A DNA stretch of 20,980 nucleotides. It comes from a virus. This document shows positions 12,337 to 20,980 of the stretch, in pieces. How positions within the stretch are numbered: the first letter of the stretch is position 1; each line of letters begins with the position of its first letter. The stretch is taken from positions 1 through 20,980 of IMG/VR virus record IMGVR_UViG_3300009423_000042. One strand, given 5' to 3'. The notes under the pieces are model-generated. The model was not told where the DNA came from. It saw only the letters and a list, made by a program, of their open reading frames with translations, and ran no database searches. Both the position numbers and the translations under genes were made by a program.

Positions 12337-12351
12337 TTGTTATATTATTAT
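12337..12351 (+). promoter_or_regulatory. Recurrent late-promoter-like motif, copy 2
   Basis: TTGTTATATTATTAT, identical to copies at 1103, 17139 and 19270, in the 34-nt gap between the tape measure and the prohead protease. The last two bases belong to the protease ATG (12350-12352). No hairpin terminator is visible before it, so read-through from the tail genes is likely to add to any initiation here. Confidence 0.6.
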
Positions 12352-12961
12352 GGAAGATTTAGAAGTTATAGAACTAGTAATTGATGAAGAGAGTGACTTT
12401 AGTGGTATAGAGGCTATTAGTATAGTTGAGAACCCTGCTATTGAAGAAGATTTCATCGCATTAAAAGAACAAAGTAGACTTGAATTAGCAAAGGTAGATG
12501 AAGAGAAGCGTATCTTAATGGGTGCAGCACTCATACCTAACAAGAAGATATACCGTAACAATGGCTTACAAGAGTATTACATCTTCTTTTCAAATGATAC
12601 GGTACGTAAAGCCTCTGAACTATTCTTATCTAAAGGTAAGCAAAACAACTCAACCTTAGAACACGAAAGCGAGTTAGAGGGATTGTCTGTTGTAGAATCT
12701 TGGATTATTGAAGATGATGTACAAGACAAGTCGAGAAAGTATGGTTTACATATGCCAGTTGGAACGTGGATGGTTTCTGTCAAGGTAAACAATGATGAGA
12801 TTTGGGAAGAGTTTGTTAAAACTAAGAGAGTGAAAGGTTTCAGTATTGAAGGATTCTTTAGCGATAAACTAGAGATGAATAAAGAAGTACTTGAAGATAA
12901 ACTAACCGAACAAGAAGTAAGTTGGTTAGAACAAATTAAAGAGATATTAAAAGATGCCTAA
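12350..12961 (+). CDS. XkdF-like prohead protease
   Basis: A 203-aa protein matching the XkdF putative phage serine protease family. Order of landmarks: acidic N-terminus with the cleavage-like segment GIEAISIVENPAI (19-31); ILMGAALIPNKKIYR (55-69); LEHESELEGLSVVESWIIE (103-121) with His105; MPVGTWMVSVKVNNDEIWEEFVK (135-157); and VKGFSIEGFF (161-170) with Ser165. His105 and Ser165 are the likely catalytic pair positions by comparison with prohead proteases; this assignment is by eye. The enzyme would process scaffold and capsid during maturation. Family members are normally encoded directly before the scaffold and capsid genes; here about 4 kb of fibre and enzyme genes intervene. Its ATG overlaps a copy of the recurrent motif, giving no room for a ribosome-binding leader. 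Confidence 0.85.
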   Translation: MEDLEVIELVIDEESDFSGIEAISIVENPAIEEDFIALKEQSRLELAKVDEEKRILMGAALIPNKKIYRNNGLQEYYIFFSNDTVRKASELFLSKGKQNNSTLEHESELEGLSVVESWIIEDDVQDKSRKYGLHMPVGTWMVSVKVNNDEIWEEFVKTKRVKGFSIEGFFSDKLEMNKEVLEDKLTEQEVSWLEQIKEILKDA

Positions 12962-13130: not shown

Positions 13131-14591
13131 ATGAGTATAAAAACAGACGCAGTAATAATCAGAGATGAAACAACTACGGGGGCGAATACAGCAGCAAGAG
13201 TAGGAACAAACTTGGTAGATATAGCAGATGATTTAATTGCTAAACAAGCAGCTATTGATTTAAACAATGCTAAAGTAAGTAATGTAGACCACCCATTAGT
13301 TGAGACCGCAGTTCCTTTAAATTCGGTCTTTACAGATACTACTTATGATGATACAGCACTACAAGCCGCTGTAGCCCTTAACACATTAAAGGAGAGTAAT
13401 ATTGCTCACCCTTTAGTTGAGAAAGCAGTACCTAGCAATGCAGTCTTTACCGATACAATCTATGATGATTCTGATGTATTGAAAGATTCTGACACAGTTT
13501 CACCTGTTACTAGCGGTAATAAGTTAATGACTGAGAGTGATGTAGCAGGTCTTGGTGGTGGTGATATGTTATCATCTATATACGACCCTATTATAGCTTC
13601 AAACACAGCTAAAGTAGGTATTACTCCACAACAAGCATCAGATATAACTGCAAATAACGATAAAATATCTTATACAGATGCAGCGGCAGTTGCTGCGAAT
13701 ACTGAGAAGGTTGGAGTTACAGCGCAAATGGTTTCTGATATTGATACTAACAATTTAAAAGTAGGAATAACTACTCAACAAGCAGATGACATAGTTGCTA
13801 ATAATGCTAAGGTTACATACCCTTCAGCAGATTCTACTAAGCTAGGATTAATTGAAGCAGGTGCAACGAATGACAATACAGCAACCATACAAACTAAAAG
13901 ACCTTTAAAATCTGTTAATGGTCAATCTATAGAAGGCTCAGGGAACGTTGTTATTTCAGGTGGAGGTAGCACTTCAGCAACAGTAGGAACAGGAGCATCA
14001 ATAGACCTTACAAATGTAGTTGGTTCTTATTATAACATAGGAGCATCATCAACAGCAACAGAATTTACAGTACCAACAGTAGCGGTAGGTGGATTCGCAG
14101 TAGTTCAAAGCGCAAGTACTACAACCGAACCAACAGTAGTGGTTACAGGTGGTACAGCAACAGAAGTAATAGGAGTATCTTGGAAAGCTAGTACTGTACT
14201 GTATCTTAATATCTATTCTTATGATGGAACAAATGTATTCTATTATTGGAGTGGGGTTGGTAGTGGAACAGATACTTTTGATAGAGTACTTCAACCTGAT
14301 TTAGCGGGTTTATCTACTTTTGAGATAGACTATGAATCAGCAGAGACTTTTGTTATAGATATGACACAGGCTACATCATTAACAGAAACAGGACTACCTA
14401 TATCTAATACACTACTAAGTAAAAAGATTACACTACATGTTAAAGGGAATTTCCCACTAACCTTACCACCTGCTTGGACTACAAGTGGGGTGATAAATGG
14501 AAGTTACACACTAGGAACAGAATATAATATAATAGTGGTTGAATATGTATCAGCGTTAACACCATTTTATAGGGTACAAATATCAATATAA
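13131..14591 (+). CDS. Repeat-containing tail fibre protein
   Basis: A 486-aa protein. The N-terminus IKTDAVIIRDETTTGANTAA, RVGTNLVDIADDL is a virion-attachment type frequent in phages of this group. A pair of repeats at about 50-77 and 89-116 shares HPLVE.AVP.N.VFTDT.YDD. A second repeat family at about 158-232 has KVGIT.QQA.DI..NN units, likely forming a trimeric coiled or triple-beta shaft. LKSVNGQSIEGSGNVVISGG precedes a Ser/Thr/Val-rich beta C-terminal region that could be the tip. No enzymatic motif is visible. Its place between protease and scaffold, away from the other fibres, suggests later acquisition. It may support or anchor the metallophosphoesterase encoded 1 nt downstream. Confidence 0.65.
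   Translation: MSIKTDAVIIRDETTTGANTAARVGTNLVDIADDLIAKQAAIDLNNAKVSNVDHPLVETAVPLNSVFTDTTYDDTALQAAVALNTLKESNIAHPLVEKAVPSNAVFTDTIYDDSDVLKDSDTVSPVTSGNKLMTESDVAGLGGGDMLSSIYDPIIASNTAKVGITPQQASDITANNDKISYTDAAAVAANTEKVGVTAQMVSDIDTNNLKVGITTQQADDIVANNAKVTYPSADSTKLGLIEAGATNDNTATIQTKRPLKSVNGQSIEGSGNVVISGGGSTSATVGTGASIDLTNVVGSYYNIGASSTATEFTVPTVAVGGFAVVQSASTTTEPTVVVTGGTATEVIGVSWKASTVLYLNIYSYDGTNVFYYWSGVGSGTDTFDRVLQPDLAGLSTFEIDYESAETFVIDMTQATSLTETGLPISNTLLSKKITLHVKGNFPLTLPPAWTTSGVINGSYTLGTEYNIIVVEYVSALTPFYRVQISI
13278..13478 (+). repeat. Two-copy fibre repeat
   Basis: Residues about 50-77 and 89-116 of the 486-aa fibre are homologous with a 39-residue offset. Both contain HPLVE, AVP, N.VFTDT and YDD in the same order. 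The DNA copies have diverged, so selection acts on the protein. The element is a common fibre-shaft building block. Confidence 0.7.
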
Positions 14592-14592
14592 T

Positions 14593-16041
14593 ATGAATAT
14601 AAACAGTATAAATAATAATCTAAGGTCAAGATTAAAGTACGCAAGAACACCTGAGCGGTATCCATTTGTGCCAATAGGAGAGAAAGCTATCTTCTTAGGT
14701 GATTTACATCCTGACTACCCAAATTTGAACCCAGTAGCAGCTGAAATAGTGAATAGAACTCCTGACTACGTGATAAATGGTGGTGATATTTACGCCGATG
14801 GAACTGTAGCAGAATTTGCCGCAACTTTAGGAGGTTATTCATCTTTTATAGCAGCAGAGAATTACTACCATGTTAAAGGAGATCACGAATTAGATTTGCT
14901 TACAGTTATAGGTGATTTAACACTAGGTACTAATATTTTTCCAATAGGAACAACTTGGGACTATTTAGTGCTTCCAAATGGAGGTGCTTTTCCGACAGAC
15001 TGGAAACTTGCCTCATTTGATGATAGTTCATGGACTAATGCAGTAGGTAGTTTTGGTTATGGTGGCATTACAGGTAAAACAATAGCTACAACAATTACGA
15101 GTGGTAGAATAAATTATTTGTTTAGAAAAACTATTAATAAAACTTCTATAACAAGTACGGGGGTTGTTATAGAACTTTCTGTAGATGATGCTTGTGAAAT
15201 TTACTTAAATGGTAATATGGTTTATTCTATAAATATGATGTATCCAATAACGCCAACTTCTACCGAAGTTCCTGAGTATTTAATAGACACCCTAATAGGG
15301 GAAGGTAGTAATCAAGTTATAAGAATCCCTTCGTCTTTATTCATAGATGGAGATAATCAAATAGCAGTTTTATTGAAAAATGGAGCAACAACAAGTAGTG
15401 ATGTATTTTTTGAAATGGCTATGCACAACTATACGTTTGCAAGTACTCCATTTTTATCAAATGGTCGCGGTGATGGTCTACAAGACTACTTACCTTATTT
15501 ACCTGCTTATGCTGAACAATATACTGTAGTTCAAAATAATATTGAATACTTCTTTATAACAAGTGGAAGAGAAAACGAAACATCATTTGTAGCTAGTCCT
15601 TCAGGACAAGGCCCTACAAGTCAACAAGCAGCTTGGTTAAAACAAGCCTTAGCAGATTCAACTGCTGATTTTAAAGTGTTAGTTTCTCACGATGCACCTG
15701 TGACAAGAGTATTTCAAAAGAGTAGACAAAACCTAGATTATTTATTAGGTAATACAGATTACCCTATTGATGTGATGTTAGTAGCAGACACTCATCTTAC
15801 AGAAGCCTATGTTCATTCAAGTGGCTTAGTAGTTTTCAATGCATCTAATCAAGATAATTCAGGTCGGCCAATTAATGCATCTATTCAGGCTACAACTCCA
15901 AGTGATTGGACTGACTTATATACTGACAATGGTAATGGTAATAATTACTTTTTAGAAATAACTAGAGATGATAATTATATGCAGTTTGATTATAGAGATA
16001 AAGATGGCAATAGTATATTCAAACATTTAATAACAAAGTAA
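14593..16041 (+). CDS. Calcineurin-like metallophosphoesterase with nested beta domain
   Basis: A 482-aa protein. Metallophosphoesterase blocks are in order: GDLH (Asp37, His39), GGD (Asp65), GDHE (Asp97, His98), VSHD (His366) and ADTH (Asp399, His401). Compared with the family consensus (GDxH, GD, GNHE/D, GHxH) two positions differ: the Asn of GNH is Asp97 and the first His of GHxH is Asp399. Between the third and fourth blocks, about 118-285, lies an inserted beta-sandwich: DWKLASFDDSSWTNAVGSFG, then FRKTINKTSI, then LSVDDACEIYLNGNMVYSIN. This is the galactose-binding-like module often found in secreted hydrolases of Bacteroidota. There is no signal peptide, and the short N-terminus (NINSINNNLRSRLKYARTPE) may attach to the virion. 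It follows the fibre gene by 1 nt. It probably acts on a phosphodiester or phosphate-decorated surface polymer; substrate and activity are unproven. Confidence 0.75.
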   Translation: MNINSINNNLRSRLKYARTPERYPFVPIGEKAIFLGDLHPDYPNLNPVAAEIVNRTPDYVINGGDIYADGTVAEFAATLGGYSSFIAAENYYHVKGDHELDLLTVIGDLTLGTNIFPIGTTWDYLVLPNGGAFPTDWKLASFDDSSWTNAVGSFGYGGITGKTIATTITSGRINYLFRKTINKTSITSTGVVIELSVDDACEIYLNGNMVYSINMMYPITPTSTEVPEYLIDTLIGEGSNQVIRIPSSLFIDGDNQIAVLLKNGATTSSDVFFEMAMHNYTFASTPFLSNGRGDGLQDYLPYLPAYAEQYTVVQNNIEYFFITSGRENETSFVASPSGQGPTSQQAAWLKQALADSTADFKVLVSHDAPVTRVFQKSRQNLDYLLGNTDYPIDVMLVADTHLTEAYVHSSGLVVFNASNQDNSGRPINASIQATTPSDWTDLYTDNGNGNNYFLEITRDDNYMQFDYRDKDGNSIFKHLITK

Positions 16042-16048
16042 CTTATAT

Positions 16049-16207
16049 ATGAAAGCAATAATTATAACACAAGAAATAAAAGACTTAAACCCTAATTTAT
16101 TCAAACAAGATGTAGGTGTAATCAAAAAATTTAAAGAAATACCTAAAAGCTTATACTCTACTATTTATTTTAATAGACAGAGAACTGATGGATATCATAT
16201 TCTATAA
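16049..16207 (+). CDS. Small hypothetical protein (52 aa)
   Basis: Starts MKAIIITQEIKDLNPNLFKQ and ends FNRQRTDGYHIL. It begins 7 nt after the metallophosphoesterase stop and fills the gap before the chimeric gene. Hydrophobic first strand, then a mixed basic region. I do not recognise a family. The short spacing and lack of internal stops support translation weakly. Confidence 0.4.
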   Translation: MKAIIITQEIKDLNPNLFKQDVGVIKKFKEIPKSLYSTIYFNRQRTDGYHIL

Positions 16208-16239
16208 TATAAATTTAATACAAATTAATAAACAACATA

Positions 16240-17115
16240 ATGAATTTAATACAAAAATTAGGCAATGCTTTTAGTTCAGGATTTGCATCATACACAGAGG
16301 TTACAAACTCTCAGGGTATTGAGCAAAACCCATTACTGAAAACATTAGAAAACATGAATACTAGACCCCGTTATAAAACGGTAGACGGTCTTGAGTATCT
16401 TACTTTCGGGGCATCTGATGATGTAGATATTATGATTGATAAGTTGATGTATAAGTCAGCGACTCACTCAGGTATAGTAACGAAGAAAGCAAAAATGATA
16501 ACAGGTTCAGGTTTATCTGTTAACTCTCAATTAATTGGAACTAAAGATGCAAAACTTAATACACTTATTAAACATGCAGGTGGGGCTAATGTAGGGTTAT
16601 ATAACTTGATAACTAAATCAGCATTTGAATATACTAAGAGTGGTCAAAATCTTGATATTACATGGGAGAATAATAAGCTTACAGATAAAGTTATGATGAC
16701 ATCTTCAGCTTCTCCTTTTTCAACAGATGGTTCTGATTTTAAAGAATGGTTAATTGATGGTGGTAAAATTACATCTTCTAATAATACTTATGTAGGCACG
16801 AATAGTGGGTTTAGTGTATGGAATACAGCAGCGGTGGATTTAAATATAACATTTAAAAACTTCACATTTGATTTAACAGATATGACAGAAGGTTATTTAT
16901 TTAACTTTCTACATAATGGAACAGTTTTATTTGAAAATTGCATATTTAAAGCGAATAGTGCTATAACAGCCGATATGACTAGAACAATACTTGGCTCTCC
17001 ATCCATAGACTGTGGTACAATGACTTTTAAAGATTGTAAATGGGTAAATGTAACACCAACTTACAGAATAGGTGATATGGTTATTACAACACCAACAAAT
17101 GAAGTAGTGCAGTAA
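16240..17115 (+). CDS. Chimera: portal-like N-terminus fused to fibre-like C-terminus
   Basis: A 291-aa protein. Residues about 48-135 align by eye with the intact portal at 19636: YLTFG (53-57) with WMTFG, a helix MIDKLMYKSATHS with KIIERYLGSPTNS, and AKMITGSGL (84-92) with TDMIFGRGL. The distance from the F of TFG to the G of the last motif is 35 residues in both. LNTLIKHAGGANVGLYNLITKSAFEY then matches MKKLLHKRHVKKVCSDYKLL in position. After about residue 137 the resemblance ends, and the rest is beta-solenoid-like (DLNITFKNFTFDLT, VLFENCIFKAN, MTFKDCKWVNV), as in fibre or spike proteins. A working portal is normally more than 400 aa, so this cannot be one. It may be a recombination relic, a fibre with a borrowed N-terminus, or an assembly artefact. 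It is not a simple truncation, because the frame stays open across the junction. Confidence 0.6.
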   Translation: MNLIQKLGNAFSSGFASYTEVTNSQGIEQNPLLKTLENMNTRPRYKTVDGLEYLTFGASDDVDIMIDKLMYKSATHSGIVTKKAKMITGSGLSVNSQLIGTKDAKLNTLIKHAGGANVGLYNLITKSAFEYTKSGQNLDITWENNKLTDKVMMTSSASPFSTDGSDFKEWLIDGGKITSSNNTYVGTNSGFSVWNTAAVDLNITFKNFTFDLTDMTEGYLFNFLHNGTVLFENCIFKANSAITADMTRTILGSPSIDCGTMTFKDCKWVNVTPTYRIGDMVITTPTNEVVQ

Positions 17116-17138
17116 AATGAAACGGAATTTTAACGAAT

Positions 17139-17153
17139 TTGTTATATTATTAT
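17139..17153 (+). promoter_or_regulatory. Recurrent late-promoter-like motif, copy 3
   Basis: TTGTTATATTATTAT, identical to the copies at 1103, 12337 and 19270. Here the ATG of the scaffold gene is 17 nt beyond the motif, so the motif is not simply a start-codon context. That is the main reason to regard it as a transcription signal. It marks the start of the scaffold-capsid unit. Confidence 0.65.
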
Positions 17154-17170
17154 AAATAAACCCAATAATT

Positions 17171-17608
17171 ATGAATACAAAAGATGTTTTACAAAAACTT
17201 CAAGAAGTATTTTCTCCTAAAGAGATAGAAGCCGAGTTATCAGAGGTGGAAGTTGTAGTGGAGGAAGTAGTAGAAGAAGTGGTTGAACAAACGGAATTAG
17301 CGGAAGAGCCTGCACAAGAGGAAGCGCCTGTTGAGGTAGCACCTGTACAAACGGTAGAGTACGCAACGAAGTTAGAAGTAGAGGAAATGAAGAAAACCTT
17401 TTTAGATTTACTTGCAGCGATGCAACAAGAATCACAAGTAGAAAAGGAAGTACCTCAAGAACTCTCTAAAGAAGAAGAAGTTGAATTAGCAGTTGAAGAG
17501 ATTGCTCATTCTCCAGAATTGGAAGTAGAGAAGAAACAAAATTTTCACGTTCCTAAAGCGAACAATGAATCATTAGAGTCTAAAATTTATAATAAACTAT
17601 TTAATTAA
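17171..17608 (+). CDS. Capsid scaffolding-like protein
   Basis: A 145-aa, strongly acidic protein, rich in Glu and Val (VVVEEVVEEVVEQTELAEE region, about 27-60), then a likely coiled coil (LEVEEMKKTFLDLLAAMQQE, about 67-90), and a C-terminus with LESKIYNKLFN. It lies 6 nt upstream of the major capsid gene. Composition, size and position are those of a scaffold expelled or cleaved during prohead maturation, but there is no sequence motif to prove it. Its natural partner would be the XkdF-like protease at 12350. It has its own motif copy 17 nt upstream of the ATG, suggesting independent high expression with the capsid. Confidence 0.7.
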   Translation: MNTKDVLQKLQEVFSPKEIEAELSEVEVVVEEVVEEVVEQTELAEEPAQEEAPVEVAPVQTVEYATKLEVEEMKKTFLDLLAAMQQESQVEKEVPQELSKEEEVELAVEEIAHSPELEVEKKQNFHVPKANNESLESKIYNKLFN

Positions 17609-17614
17609 AAAATT

Positions 17615-18538
17615 ATGCCAACAGCAACAGTAACATCAACTTACGCAGGGGAATTTGACGCACAGAAATATATTTCAGCTGCCTTATTATCTGCTCCAAC
17701 CTTAGAGAAAGGATTGGTAACAGTAAAACCTAACGTTAAATACAGAACAACTGTAAAAAACGTAGTAACTAACGGTCTTTTACAAGATGCAGCTTGTGAT
17801 TTCACAGATGCAGGAACAGTAGTATTAGACGAAAGAGTATTAGAGCCAAAAGCTTTAATGGTAAACAAAGTCTTATGTAAAGATGATTTCAGAGAAGATT
17901 GGGATGCAATCTCTATGGGATATAGTGCATACGATAATTTACCTCCTGATTTTCAATCATTCTTATTAGCACACATTGTTAAGCAAGTAGCAGCAGAGAA
18001 TGAAGTATCTATTTGGAGAGGTACAGCAGCAGCAGGTAGTTTCGATGGTTTCGCTACTCAAATCGCTTTAGATGCAGGTTTACCAGCAGCACAAGAGATT
18101 GCAGGTGCAGCTATTACTGCAACTAACGTTATTGCAGAGTTACAGAAAATTCATTCAGCTATTCCTGATACTTTATTTGGAAACCCTGATTTAAGAATAT
18201 ATGTATCACAAAACATTTACAGAGCGTATGTTCAAGCGTTAGGTAACTTAGGATTTGTTGATAGATTCAATAACCAATCATTTGGTGAAGTAGTAATCGA
18301 TGGTTTCACAGTAGTTATGGTTAATGGACTTGCAGCTAACACAGCAATAGCAACTCTTAAATCTAACTTGTGGTTTGGAACGGGATTATTGAATGACACT
18401 AATATGGTTAAGGTAATTGATACTGCCGATACTTTAGGTGATGAGAATGTGAGAATCATTATGAGAATGACCGCAGGAACACAATACGGACAGATTACAG
18501 AAATTGTAACTTACGGTATCGTTAACGCTGCTAACTAA
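17615..18538 (+). CDS. Major capsid protein
   Basis: A 307-aa protein. Position after the scaffold, size, and composition (few charged clusters, many Ala/Thr/Asn/Val) fit an HK97-fold capsid protein of the kind seen in Bacteroidota phages. Recognisable stretches include YRTTVKNVVTNGLLQDAACDF near residue 50, LVNKVLCKDDFREDWD-like text around 85-105 (actual start of that stretch MVNKVLC), HIVKQVAAENEVSIWRGTA (about 124-142), and a C-terminal RIIMRMTAGTQYGQITEIVT. The QAAENE.-IW.G type helix end is typical of the capsid spine helix. The start has an A-rich upstream context (TTAAAAAATT) without a Shine-Dalgarno. A strong hairpin follows the stop. I infer HK97 fold from context, not from a conserved motif. 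Confidence 0.75.
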   Translation: MPTATVTSTYAGEFDAQKYISAALLSAPTLEKGLVTVKPNVKYRTTVKNVVTNGLLQDAACDFTDAGTVVLDERVLEPKALMVNKVLCKDDFREDWDAISMGYSAYDNLPPDFQSFLLAHIVKQVAAENEVSIWRGTAAAGSFDGFATQIALDAGLPAAQEIAGAAITATNVIAELQKIHSAIPDTLFGNPDLRIYVSQNIYRAYVQALGNLGFVDRFNNQSFGEVVIDGFTVVMVNGLAANTAIATLKSNLWFGTGLLNDTNMVKVIDTADTLGDENVRIIMRMTAGTQYGQITEIVTYGIVNAAN

Positions 18539-18540
18539 GA

Positions 18541-18578
18541 ATAATATAAGGGAGGTGTAAAAAACCTCCCAATATTAT
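18541..18578 (+). terminator. Hairpin after the major capsid gene
   Basis: GGGAGGT (18550-18556) pairs perfectly with ACCTCCC (18564-18570) around a 7-nt loop. An outer stem ATAATAT (18541-18547) pairs with ATATTAT (18572-18578) across a small internal loop. No run of T follows directly (AATATTATCTAATTA), so it may act as a partial terminator or as a 3' stabiliser of capsid mRNA rather than a full stop. It separates the capsid gene from the tail tube gene. Confidence 0.65.
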
Positions 18579-18609
18579 CTAATTAATTAATTAAAAAAAA
18601 TATAAACTT

Positions 18610-19179
18610 ATGGCTTGTGATATTAGTGCAGGAAGAACCGAAGCGTGTAAATCCAATGTAGGTGGTTTACGTAATATGTATATCGGTAACTTTTCAGCAG
18701 GAATGTACGATGAGTTTTTAGATGCAGATAAAGATTTAGACTTTATAACCGCTTTAGTTACACCAGTAGATGTGTATAAATTTGAGTTACGAGGTGAGAA
18801 TAATACTTTTGATGAAGCTAACGAAATCTCTCGTGATAACGGAACATCGTTCTGGACACAAACAGCGAACATCGTTGTTAAAAAACAAGATAACTTAACT
18901 CAAGTGCAGTTAAAATTGTTATCTTATGGTAGACCACATATAATCCTTGAAGATTATAATGGTAATTTTAGAATACTAGGAGCGCAAAACGGATGTGAAG
19001 TAGCAGTATCTAGTTCTACGGGTGGTGCAATGGGTGACTTAAATGGTTACACTATGGCTATCGAAGGAAAAGAATTAAGTATGGCTTACTTTGTAGACCC
19101 TGCTATTGTAGTTGCAGGAGCAGCGACAGGATATGATGTGCAAACAGCAGTATTATCTGATGGAGTTTTAGTACCTTAA
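18610..19179 (+). CDS. Major tail (tube) protein
   Basis: A 189-aa protein starting MACDISAGRTEACKSNVGGL. Middle landmarks: VDVYKFELRGENNTFDEANE and ISRDNGTSFWTQTANIVVKK, then VQLKLLSYGRPHIILEDYNG, then GDLNGYTMAIEGKE. 'MAC.....GR.E.CK..VGGL ... SR.NGT.F..Q ... LL.YGRP.I..ED.NG' is a pattern I know from a Bacteroidota phage family placed where the tail tube protein is expected. It is highly expressed in phages as a rule, consistent with a capsid-side hairpin upstream and a strong terminator directly downstream. A two-Cys N-terminus (C3, C13) is notable. Confidence 0.7.
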   Translation: MACDISAGRTEACKSNVGGLRNMYIGNFSAGMYDEFLDADKDLDFITALVTPVDVYKFELRGENNTFDEANEISRDNGTSFWTQTANIVVKKQDNLTQVQLKLLSYGRPHIILEDYNGNFRILGAQNGCEVAVSSSTGGAMGDLNGYTMAIEGKELSMAYFVDPAIVVAGAATGYDVQTAVLSDGVLVP

Positions 19180-19211
19180 TACTTAGTAGTATTAAAATGT
19201 TTAATAATATG

Positions 19212-19243
19212 GAGGCTACACTTAAAACGGTAGCCTCTTTTTT
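19212..19243 (+). terminator. Rho-independent terminator after tail tube gene
   Basis: GAGGCTAC (19212-19219) pairs perfectly with GTAGCCTC (19230-19237) around a 10-nt loop, followed directly by six T bases (19238-19243). It is the best terminator in the window. It ends the scaffold-capsid-tube unit; the next promoter-like motif begins 27 nt further on. Confidence 0.85.
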
Positions 19244-19269
19244 ATTATATAAAACAAATATGGCTTTTT

Positions 19270-19284
19270 TTGTTATATTATTAT
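19270..19284 (+). promoter_or_regulatory. Recurrent late-promoter-like motif, copy 4
   Basis: TTGTTATATTATTAT preceded by a T run, identical to the copies at 1103, 12337 and 17139. It lies just downstream of a strong terminator, so transcription must restart here; this is the strongest contextual argument that the motif is a promoter. The last two bases belong to the ATG at 19283-19285. Confidence 0.7.
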
Positions 19285-19633
19285 GACAATATTCGATTAC
19301 GATAATTTACCGACTATAAGTATTCCCTATATTCTAAGAGAAGTAGGAAATCCTGCTATTGGTGTATGGGTTACTAATCAAGAAACTAAGGAGAAAGTGT
19401 TTTGTGATGCTGTAACAATAGGAGAACTTAAATCCTTTTTCTATGATGGGTACTTTCTTGTGAACATAACAGACTTAGTTGCAAACATAAATGTAAACAC
19501 AACATTATTAGTATCAGCTATTGATTCTAATAACCTACCAATTTATAGAGATATAGTTGTATTTAGTAATAGGCTAGATACGGATTCTGATTACGAACAA
19601 AATGATAACAGTGGCGAATATGCCTTTGTATAA
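19283..19633 (+). CDS. Hypothetical structural-region protein (116 aa)
   Basis: Begins MTIFDYDNLPTISIPYILRE and ends DYEQNDNSGEYAFV. The sequence is beta-rich with hydrophobic alternation (YFLVNITDLVANINVNTTLL) and an acidic C-terminal tail, without Cys or enzyme motifs apart from a single FCDA. The start is fixed by the motif that overlaps its ATG. It is 2 nt upstream of the portal and probably co-transcribed with it. I do not recognise a family. A head-completion, neck or portal-accessory role is only guessed from position. Confidence 0.6.
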   Translation: MTIFDYDNLPTISIPYILREVGNPAIGVWVTNQETKEKVFCDAVTIGELKSFFYDGYFLVNITDLVANINVNTTLLVSAIDSNNLPIYRDIVVFSNRLDTDSDYEQNDNSGEYAFV

Positions 19634-19635
19634 TT

Positions 19636-20980
19636 ATGGAAGATAAAAAACCACAAACAGGAATAAGAGTATCTAAGTATAACTTATCAGGGTACGAAAA
19701 GCCTACCGTTAAAGAAGTCTACAACAAGGATTGGATGACTTTTGGAGATAACAACGACTACTTTGATAAGATTATAGAGCGTTACTTAGGCTCTCCTACA
19801 AACTCAAGATGTGTAAATGGTATTACTGATATGATATTCGGTAGAGGTTTAGATGCATTAGATTCTTTAAATAAACCTAAAGAGTATCTTGAGATGAAGA
19901 AGTTGTTACATAAACGACACGTAAAGAAGGTTTGTTCAGATTACAAGTTATTAGGTCAAGCAGCTATTCAAGTAACATATAACAAGGCTAGAACTAAGAT
20001 ACTTAAAGTATCTCACTTCCCTATGGAGTGTTTACGAGCAGAGAAAGCAGATAGTAAAGGATTTATTAGAGCATACTACTACCATCCATCTTGGAAGGAT
20101 ATTAAGACTACTGATAAGCCTAAACGCATACCATCATTCGGTAATGGTTCAAACAAAGAACTTAACGAGATATATATAGTTAAGCCTTACAGAAGTGGTT
20201 TCTATTACTATGCTCCTGTTGACTATCACGGATGTTTACAGTATTGTTCACTAGAAGAAGAGGTATCGAATTATCATATTAACAATATACAGAACGGACT
20301 ACAACCATCTTTATTAATTAACTTTAATAATGGAGTACCTAGTGAAGAAACTCAAGATGCTATTGAGAAAAGGATATACCAAAAGTTTAGCGGTTCAAGT
20401 AATGCAGGTAAGTTTATCATTGCATTTAACGAATCACAAGAAACTAAAGCAGACTTAGAGCCTATACACTTACCAGATGCTCACGCTCAATACCAATTTA
20501 TGAGTGATGAAGCAAGAGAGAAGATAATGTTAGGACACGGTGTTACATCTCCAATACTATTAGGTATTAAAGATAACACAGGGTTTGGTAATAATGCAGA
20601 AGAATTACGTACAGCATCAGTATTAATGGATAATGTTATTATTAGACCATTACAAGATGAGATACTACACGCTTTTGAAGAAATATTATTAGTAAATGAT
20701 ATTAACTTAGATTTATATTTCACTACACTTCAACCTATCGAGTTTACAGAGTTAGATAATATCTCTACTAAGATTAAAAGAGAAGAAGAAACAGGTGAAA
20801 AACTATCGTCTGACAAGATTGAGTTAACCGATGGTGAGGAGGATGACCTTATGAGCCAATTAGAGGCTCTTGGAGAAACTATCTCTGATGGTTGGGAGCT
20901 AATACATTCCGAAGAGGTAAAAGACTCGGAAAAGGACTTTAAAATCGATTCTCTAGCAGAGGCTAATCCTAAGAAAAAGA
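19636..20980 (+). CDS. Portal protein, 3' end beyond window
   Basis: An open frame of 448 codons that continues past the right edge. Start MEDKKPQTGIRVSKYNLSGY; then WMTFGDNNDYFDKIIERYLG (33-52) and TDMIFGRGL (64-72), the N-terminal pattern of portals in Bacteroidota phages ('W.TFG..N.Y...I...Y..SP...... G..D.I.G.GL'). Mid-protein features include LLGQAAIQVTYNKARTKILK and VSHFPMECLRAEKADSKGFI, then a likely stem/crown region with MLGHGVTSPILLGIKDNTGF and GNNAEELRTASVLMDNVIIR (LGI and N.AEEL boxes are typical). The C-terminal part seen is acidic (EALGETISDGWELIHSEEV). The portal is the DNA gate at the capsid vertex. It is unusual that it lies after the capsid and tail tube genes. A second, N-terminal-only portal copy is at 16240. 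Confidence 0.8.
   Translation, partial: MEDKKPQTGIRVSKYNLSGYEKPTVKEVYNKDWMTFGDNNDYFDKIIERYLGSPTNSRCVNGITDMIFGRGLDALDSLNKPKEYLEMKKLLHKRHVKKVCSDYKLLGQAAIQVTYNKARTKILKVSHFPMECLRAEKADSKGFIRAYYYHPSWKDIKTTDKPKRIPSFGNGSNKELNEIYIVKPYRSGFYYYAPVDYHGCLQYCSLEEEVSNYHINNIQNGLQPSLLINFNNGVPSEETQDAIEKRIYQKFSGSSNAGKFIIAFNESQETKADLEPIHLPDAHAQYQFMSDEAREKIMLGHGVTSPILLGIKDNTGFGNNAEELRTASVLMDNVIIRPLQDEILHAFEEILLVNDINLDLYFTTLQPIEFTELDNISTKIKREEETGEKLSSDKIELTDGEEDDLMSQLEALGETISDGWELIHSEEVKDSEKDFKIDSLAEANPKKK

Follow-up and report, generated by a model that had tools for sequence, protein, structure and literature searches.

The open reading frame at positions 16240-17115 of IMG/VR virus record IMGVR_UViG_3300009423_000042 was identified by homology as a composite gene, in which a 5' portal gene fragment is joined in frame to the 3' end of a fibre gene. 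The record was analyzed over its whole length of 20,980 bases (the window) and is sea-phage DNA (Table 1). The two parts, a portal N-terminus and the end of a beta-helix fibre, are homologous to two separate, unrelated gene families. Recombination between two phage lineages probably made the chimera, and its product would be a tolerated remnant, translated in all probability and functioning neither as a portal nor as an anchored fibre. The portal/fibre chimera in one open frame that the original prediction proposed is real. Homologues outside the window were found for both halves (portals for residues 1-135, a fibre from the same slot for residues 184-265). For the suggested recombination scar from a second phage, strong support comes from the identity to donor-lineage portals, the sharp junction, the truncated upstream gene and the hypervariable fibre locus.

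Table 1 Features of the window at and around the chimeric gene
Feature	Position	Strand	Basis
Head maturation protease (XkdF-like, Peptidase_S78_2), left border of the slot	12350..12961	+	Pfam PF14550, E 2.5e-15
First fibre gene of the slot	13131..14591	+	Shares its N-terminal part with the 544-aa gene in L013/L014; diverges in the middle
Slot gene with calcineurin-like phosphoesterase domain	14593..16041	+	PF00149, E 4e-8
Truncated 5' part of a 218-aa gene, 52 codons plus stop	16049..16207	+	60 % identity to L013:5284-5940
Left junction zone and A-rich leader	16208..16239	+	Alignments; resembles donor portal leaders
Chimeric ORF	16240..17115	+	291 aa, ATG start
Foreign portal segment, codons 1-135 of an other-lineage portal	16240..16644	+	Nucleotide and amino acid identity to L004-L012
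Right-handed beta-helix fibre 3' end, fused in frame, with the ORF stop codon	16645..17115	+	L013 fibre match; structure neighbours
Right slot edge (conserved), with the leader of the scaffold-like gene	17116..17170	+	Homology to L013-L016 resumes
Scaffold-like gene, right flank of the slot	17171..17608	+	Position before the major capsid protein; acidic composition
Own portal gene, cut by the record end	19636..20979	+	phrog_33693, E 5e-87

Origin of the portal segment

Residues 1-135 of the chimera are 81-86 % identical to the N-termini of full-length portals of 430-432 amino acids, encoded by nine other IMG/VR contigs (L004-L012) and referred to here as donor-type portals. Identity to L004 is 80 % at the nucleotide and 86 % at the amino acid level, and identity to L005-L012 is 77-78 % and 81-83 %, respectively; a tenth, more distant portal matches the segment at 61 %. 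The full donor-type portals match portal profiles, and with a low-confidence model of a donor portal (pLDDT 46) solved portals were found with E values down to 9e-6. A search of the portal profile against PDB sequences gave no match, and an alignment that mixed portal and fibre rows turned out to be misaligned and was discarded.

The segment had been proposed to match, over about 90 residues, the portal of the window itself at 19636. The TFG and MI.G.GL motifs do lie inside both aligned stretches. However, the portal-derived part extends over 135 residues, and its closest portals are foreign and not the neighbour. By BLASTP, chimera residues 42-92 align with own-portal residues 22-72 (35 % identity over 52 amino acids, E 2e-4 as a single comparison), and by profile-profile comparison residues 41-111 align with own-portal columns 20-91 (E 7e-4, at a probability of only 26 %). 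The full donor portals are 21-24 % identical to the own portal (E 1e-12 to 1e-15), the best matches being 23-24 % over about 350 residues (E about 1e-15). Taken together, the alignments show that residues 1-135 are a piece of the portal of another marine lineage and not a copy of the neighbouring gene. The own portal is 39 % identical to that of Nonlabens phage P12024S/L, and its relatives measure 570-597 amino acids. Portals of this clade (L015:2583-4295, L019:4124-5896 and others) have a C-terminal extension with the Cys/His motifs FC..M, RKEDI and KGG..C.H.W; the copy in the window is cut by the contig end.

The chimera resembles portal proteins (phrog_11226, phrog_33693; Pfam PF04860) in the homology of residues 1-135 to their N-terminal region, and differs from them in holding about a third of such a protein. 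The match stops at residue 135 of ~432, so that a complete core of wing, stem and clip is not present. In the low-confidence model the first beta-strand predicted for the wing begins just after the end of the fragment. From this model and general portal anatomy, the fragment would have no stem, clip or crown and only a small part of the wing. The chimera retains every residue of this segment that does not vary among the donor portals and L053. Compared to L004, dN is 0.09 and dS about 1.2 (dN/dS about 0.07), with 56 of 81 differences at third codon positions. These values give no sign of long decay of the portal half, and much of the history that they record may be that of a true portal; because most of the divergence may predate the transfer, dN/dS cannot date a loss of function.

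It was suggested in the original prediction that the protein could be a decoy or modified portal subunit. A fragment acting in a decoy or regulatory role would enter or disturb portal rings, either those of the phage itself or those of co-infecting donor-type phages (superinfection interference). The segment is indeed 81-86 % identical to portals of phages that shared a cell with the ancestor, its translation signals are kept, and a dominant-negative effect on the donor lineage is possible in principle. However, the 135-residue piece appears to lack the stem, clip, crown and most wing strands, and the fusion was not found repeatedly, though a selected interference gene is expected to recur. 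A decoy subunit is therefore regarded as very unlikely.

The fibre-derived part

Residues 184-265 of the chimera align with residues 854-941 of the 1008-residue fibre of L013 (31 % identity over 90 positions, z 8.6 against 500 shuffles). In L013 the scaffold-like gene comes directly after this fibre gene, just as it comes after the chimera in the window, and the counterpart of this match is common to the close relatives L013 and L014. A weak glocal alignment hints that residues 136-183 are fibre-derived as well. The end of the L016 fibre has no similarity to the C-terminal half (z 0.9). In a model of the chimera (mean pLDDT 42) strands are paired in residues 168-274, in part with pLDDT 55-79, and the structures closest to it are those of pectate lyases, alginate lyases and phage tailspikes (Z up to 9.2). 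At this model quality the neighbours support a beta-helix fold but no function. The C-terminus that had been described as beta-solenoid-like thus appears beta-helix-like, both by the L013 fibre match and by the pectate-lyase-like neighbours of the model. Structure prediction, proposed as a check on both halves, was informative for the fibre half; the portal part had no structural match of its own in this low-confidence model, which is no evidence against a portal origin. Foldseek gave no significant match among viral models, and no catalytic family was matched by the fibre half in searches that included Pfam and PHROG profiles.

The fibres of L013, L014 and L056 start with MAIVKQGxTTLNSGSKGDKGxxG. 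The C-terminal beta-helix of the chimera is homologous to this type of slot fibre, and the starting motif has no match anywhere in the window; the chimera has therefore lost the N-terminus of the fibre family. About 156 fibre residues are left, compared to 1008-1037 in the same slot of the relatives. On these alignments the C-terminal part is a fibre remnant without its anchor and without more than 80 % of its length.

Such a remnant could still be expressed for a purpose, the portal segment providing a start and leader and the tip retaining some function, such as glycan binding in soluble form. The periodicity of a beta-helix is preserved in the C-terminal 156 residues (pLDDT 55-79 in part), as is their similarity to L013, and no stops interrupt them. 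However, the piece is short and matches no catalytic family, and the two known copies are identical in the chimera, leaving no post-fusion selection signal to read. A role of this kind is considered quite unlikely.

A functional fibre of another kind was also envisaged, in which the beta-helix tip is attached to the neck or portal vertex by the portal segment and forms a new adsorption appendage. It would be in line with the open, in-frame ORF that has kept the start and leader of the portal, with the conserved donor-portal residues that are kept, with the location among head and fibre genes and with the presence of the fusion in two records. Against it, the source portal is only about 24 % identical to the phage's own, the fragment stops before the first wing strand predicted in the low-confidence model, about 156 fibre residues are left of the 1008-1037 in relatives, and no other such fusion was found in IMG/VR. 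This appendage is likewise quite unlikely. Neither the decoy or modified portal subunit nor the portal-anchored fibre found positive support. The fragment ends before the wing strands of the low-confidence model, comes from a portal ~24 % identical to the own portal and displaces the fibre N-terminus. Overall, it is quite unlikely that the fusion is a working protein, whether as an anchor for a minimal beta-helix tip at the portal vertex or as an inhibitor of portal assembly in co-infecting phages of the donor lineage. A selected role for the fusion is possible, with no positive support.

Junctions and occurrence of the fusion

At the right junction, the DNA similarity to donor-type portals stops at base 16644, corresponding to residue 135. 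Donors and window have the sequence ...ACTAAGAGTGGT in common; beyond it the portal gene continues in the donors, whereas the window switches to a sequence unrelated to it. The junction had been placed at residues 137/138; the sharp change was confirmed, but its exact site is slightly earlier. On the left side a 218-codon gene that is complete at the same place in L013 and L014 is truncated in the window. Its identity to L013:5284-5940 covers residues 1-53 and the rest is absent. The stop codon of the truncated gene (16205-16207) is followed by the A-rich leader resembling that of donor portals. A direct repeat of 15/16 nucleotides is located at the left junction (16209-16224 and 16240-16255, the latter being the first bases of the ORF).

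The same fusion, with both junctions, is present in a separate IMG/VR contig (L003). The window and L003 differ by nine SNPs over 6901 bases, none of them in the chimera, where about one was expected, so that zero is uninformative. It had been considered that the fusion might be a misassembly, in which an assembler joined contigs of two co-occurring phages. The record is metagenomic, and L003 could be a re-assembly of related reads. However, L003 has both junctions together with nine SNPs located elsewhere, and is thus a different assembled sequence. Moreover, the donor-type portals and the window have no common run beyond the portal match at the right junction, and no repeat other than the one of 16 nucleotides was found at the left junction. 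Misassembly is disfavoured by these data and held to be very unlikely.

Six of the nine SNPs lie within 38 bases of the scaffold-like gene (window 17223-17260), which suggests a small recombination tract or local assembly variation.

No third copy of the fusion was found in IMG/VR besides the window and L003. A degenerate junction pattern searched in IMG/VR retrieved the fusion from L003 only, five other matches being unrelated or out-of-frame chance. The chimera and its C-terminal half had no match in 50,697 phage records, and no portal-fibre chimeras were found in the literature (open-access papers).

The fibre slot

Comparison with related contigs shows the region between the protease and the scaffold-like gene to be a hypervariable, swappable fibre slot with a fixed right border at 17112. 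The DNA around the protease is collinear with L013 (92.5 %) up to about 13340, and the flanking DNA at 17112-20307 is 95 % identical to L013. Between ~13,664 and 17,112 almost nothing is common to the window and its 92-95 %-identical relatives L013 and L014. In L013, L014, L015 and L016 alike, homology returns exactly at the stop codon that ends the last gene of the slot, and L016 and L013 have different fibres in the slot. The first fibre gene of the slot is 58-65 % identical to the 544-aa gene of L013/L014 over the N-terminal ~180 residues and 44 % over the last ~100. The gene at 14593-16041 joins its calcineurin-like phosphoesterase domain to fibre-like sequence and has no counterpart in L013/L014. 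The name of the scaffold-like gene was inferred from its position and acidic composition, its phrog_73 match being weak (E 0.73).

The right-edge sequence AAAATGAAACGGAATTTnAACGAATTTGTTAT is also found after a related 873-residue fibre in L056, where the downstream sequence is unrelated. This occurrence in L056 marks, as judged from the shared sequence, a transferable fibre cassette, of which the chimera locus marks the right border. The edge sequence ATGAAACGGAATTTnAACGAATTTGTTAT (window 17117-17145; L056:4721-4749) is conserved after different fibre genes and in the unrelated genome context of L056.

Proposed origin of the chimera

The portal genes of L004, L007 and L011 are each preceded, at a distance of 4 to about 30 bases, by a long fibre or adhesin-like gene. 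The first 54 residues of the L007 fibre are common to the first fibre gene of the slot (37-39 % identity). During co-infection, a foreign 5' portal fragment with its A-rich leader would have been joined into the fibre slot by illegitimate recombination. Lost in exchange would have been the 3' part of the 218-aa gene, a 174-aa gene and the larger share of the fibre gene, its N-terminal anchor included. A plausible route is a fibre exchange that overshot into the portal, because the donor fibre gene sits immediately upstream of the portal gene. Translation of the 291-aa product probably begins at the start codon that came with the portal, and the protein would be a tolerated remnant, most likely neither a working portal, because the N-terminal part alone of a portal is retained, nor a virion-bound fibre, because the anchor and most of the beta-helix are missing. 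A random join is in frame about once in three times and the halves keep their own frames; the fusion therefore needs no selection, and the scar is probably accidental. The product would have lost its function with the frame intact and the portal part undecayed.

The closest parents found are donor portals with 86 % amino acid identity at best and a fibre parent with only 31 %. The L004 donor portal had no match in the 50,697 phage records at the sensitivity used, and the donor portal alignment retrieved none from 84,980 bacterial and archaeal genomes. The recombination implies a common host for both lineages, and the Nonlabens and Bacteroides phage relatives indicate that both probably infect Bacteroidota.

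Relation to known composite genes

The chimera is a known kind of composite gene, and the pair of parts is unusual. The receptor-binding protein of Lactococcus phage bIBB29 is a composite (mosaic) viral gene as well, in which parts of two phage groups are combined in frame. Its N-terminal part, however, is group-conserved receptor-binding-protein sequence, whereas that of the chimera is a portal piece and no attachment domain is kept (PMC4202312). Tail-fibre modules such as those of Alteromonas phage A5 are reported to be exchanged between distantly related phages. Unrelated phages with common host-recognition modules, and a variable fibre slot with conserved borders, are found in both cases. 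The exchanges described there concern whole working modules and chaperones, whereas in the chimera one end lies inside a portal gene and genes are truncated (PMC10579305).

The chimera offers a clear view of one illegitimate recombination event that joined two lineages of uncultivated marine phages. If the fusion were functional, it would represent a novel mode of fibre attachment or of interference with a rival's portal; nothing found here requires a function. In metagenomes, such portal fragments can be miscounted as second portals.

A repeated element in the window

A 16-nucleotide element, TTTGTTATATTATTAT, has four copies on the + strand (at 1102, 12336, 17138 and 19269), while shuffled sequences expect 0.29. 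At least three copies are located directly upstream of gene starts, namely those of the protease, the scaffold-like gene and the gene at 19283. It may serve phages of this group as a late promoter or leader.
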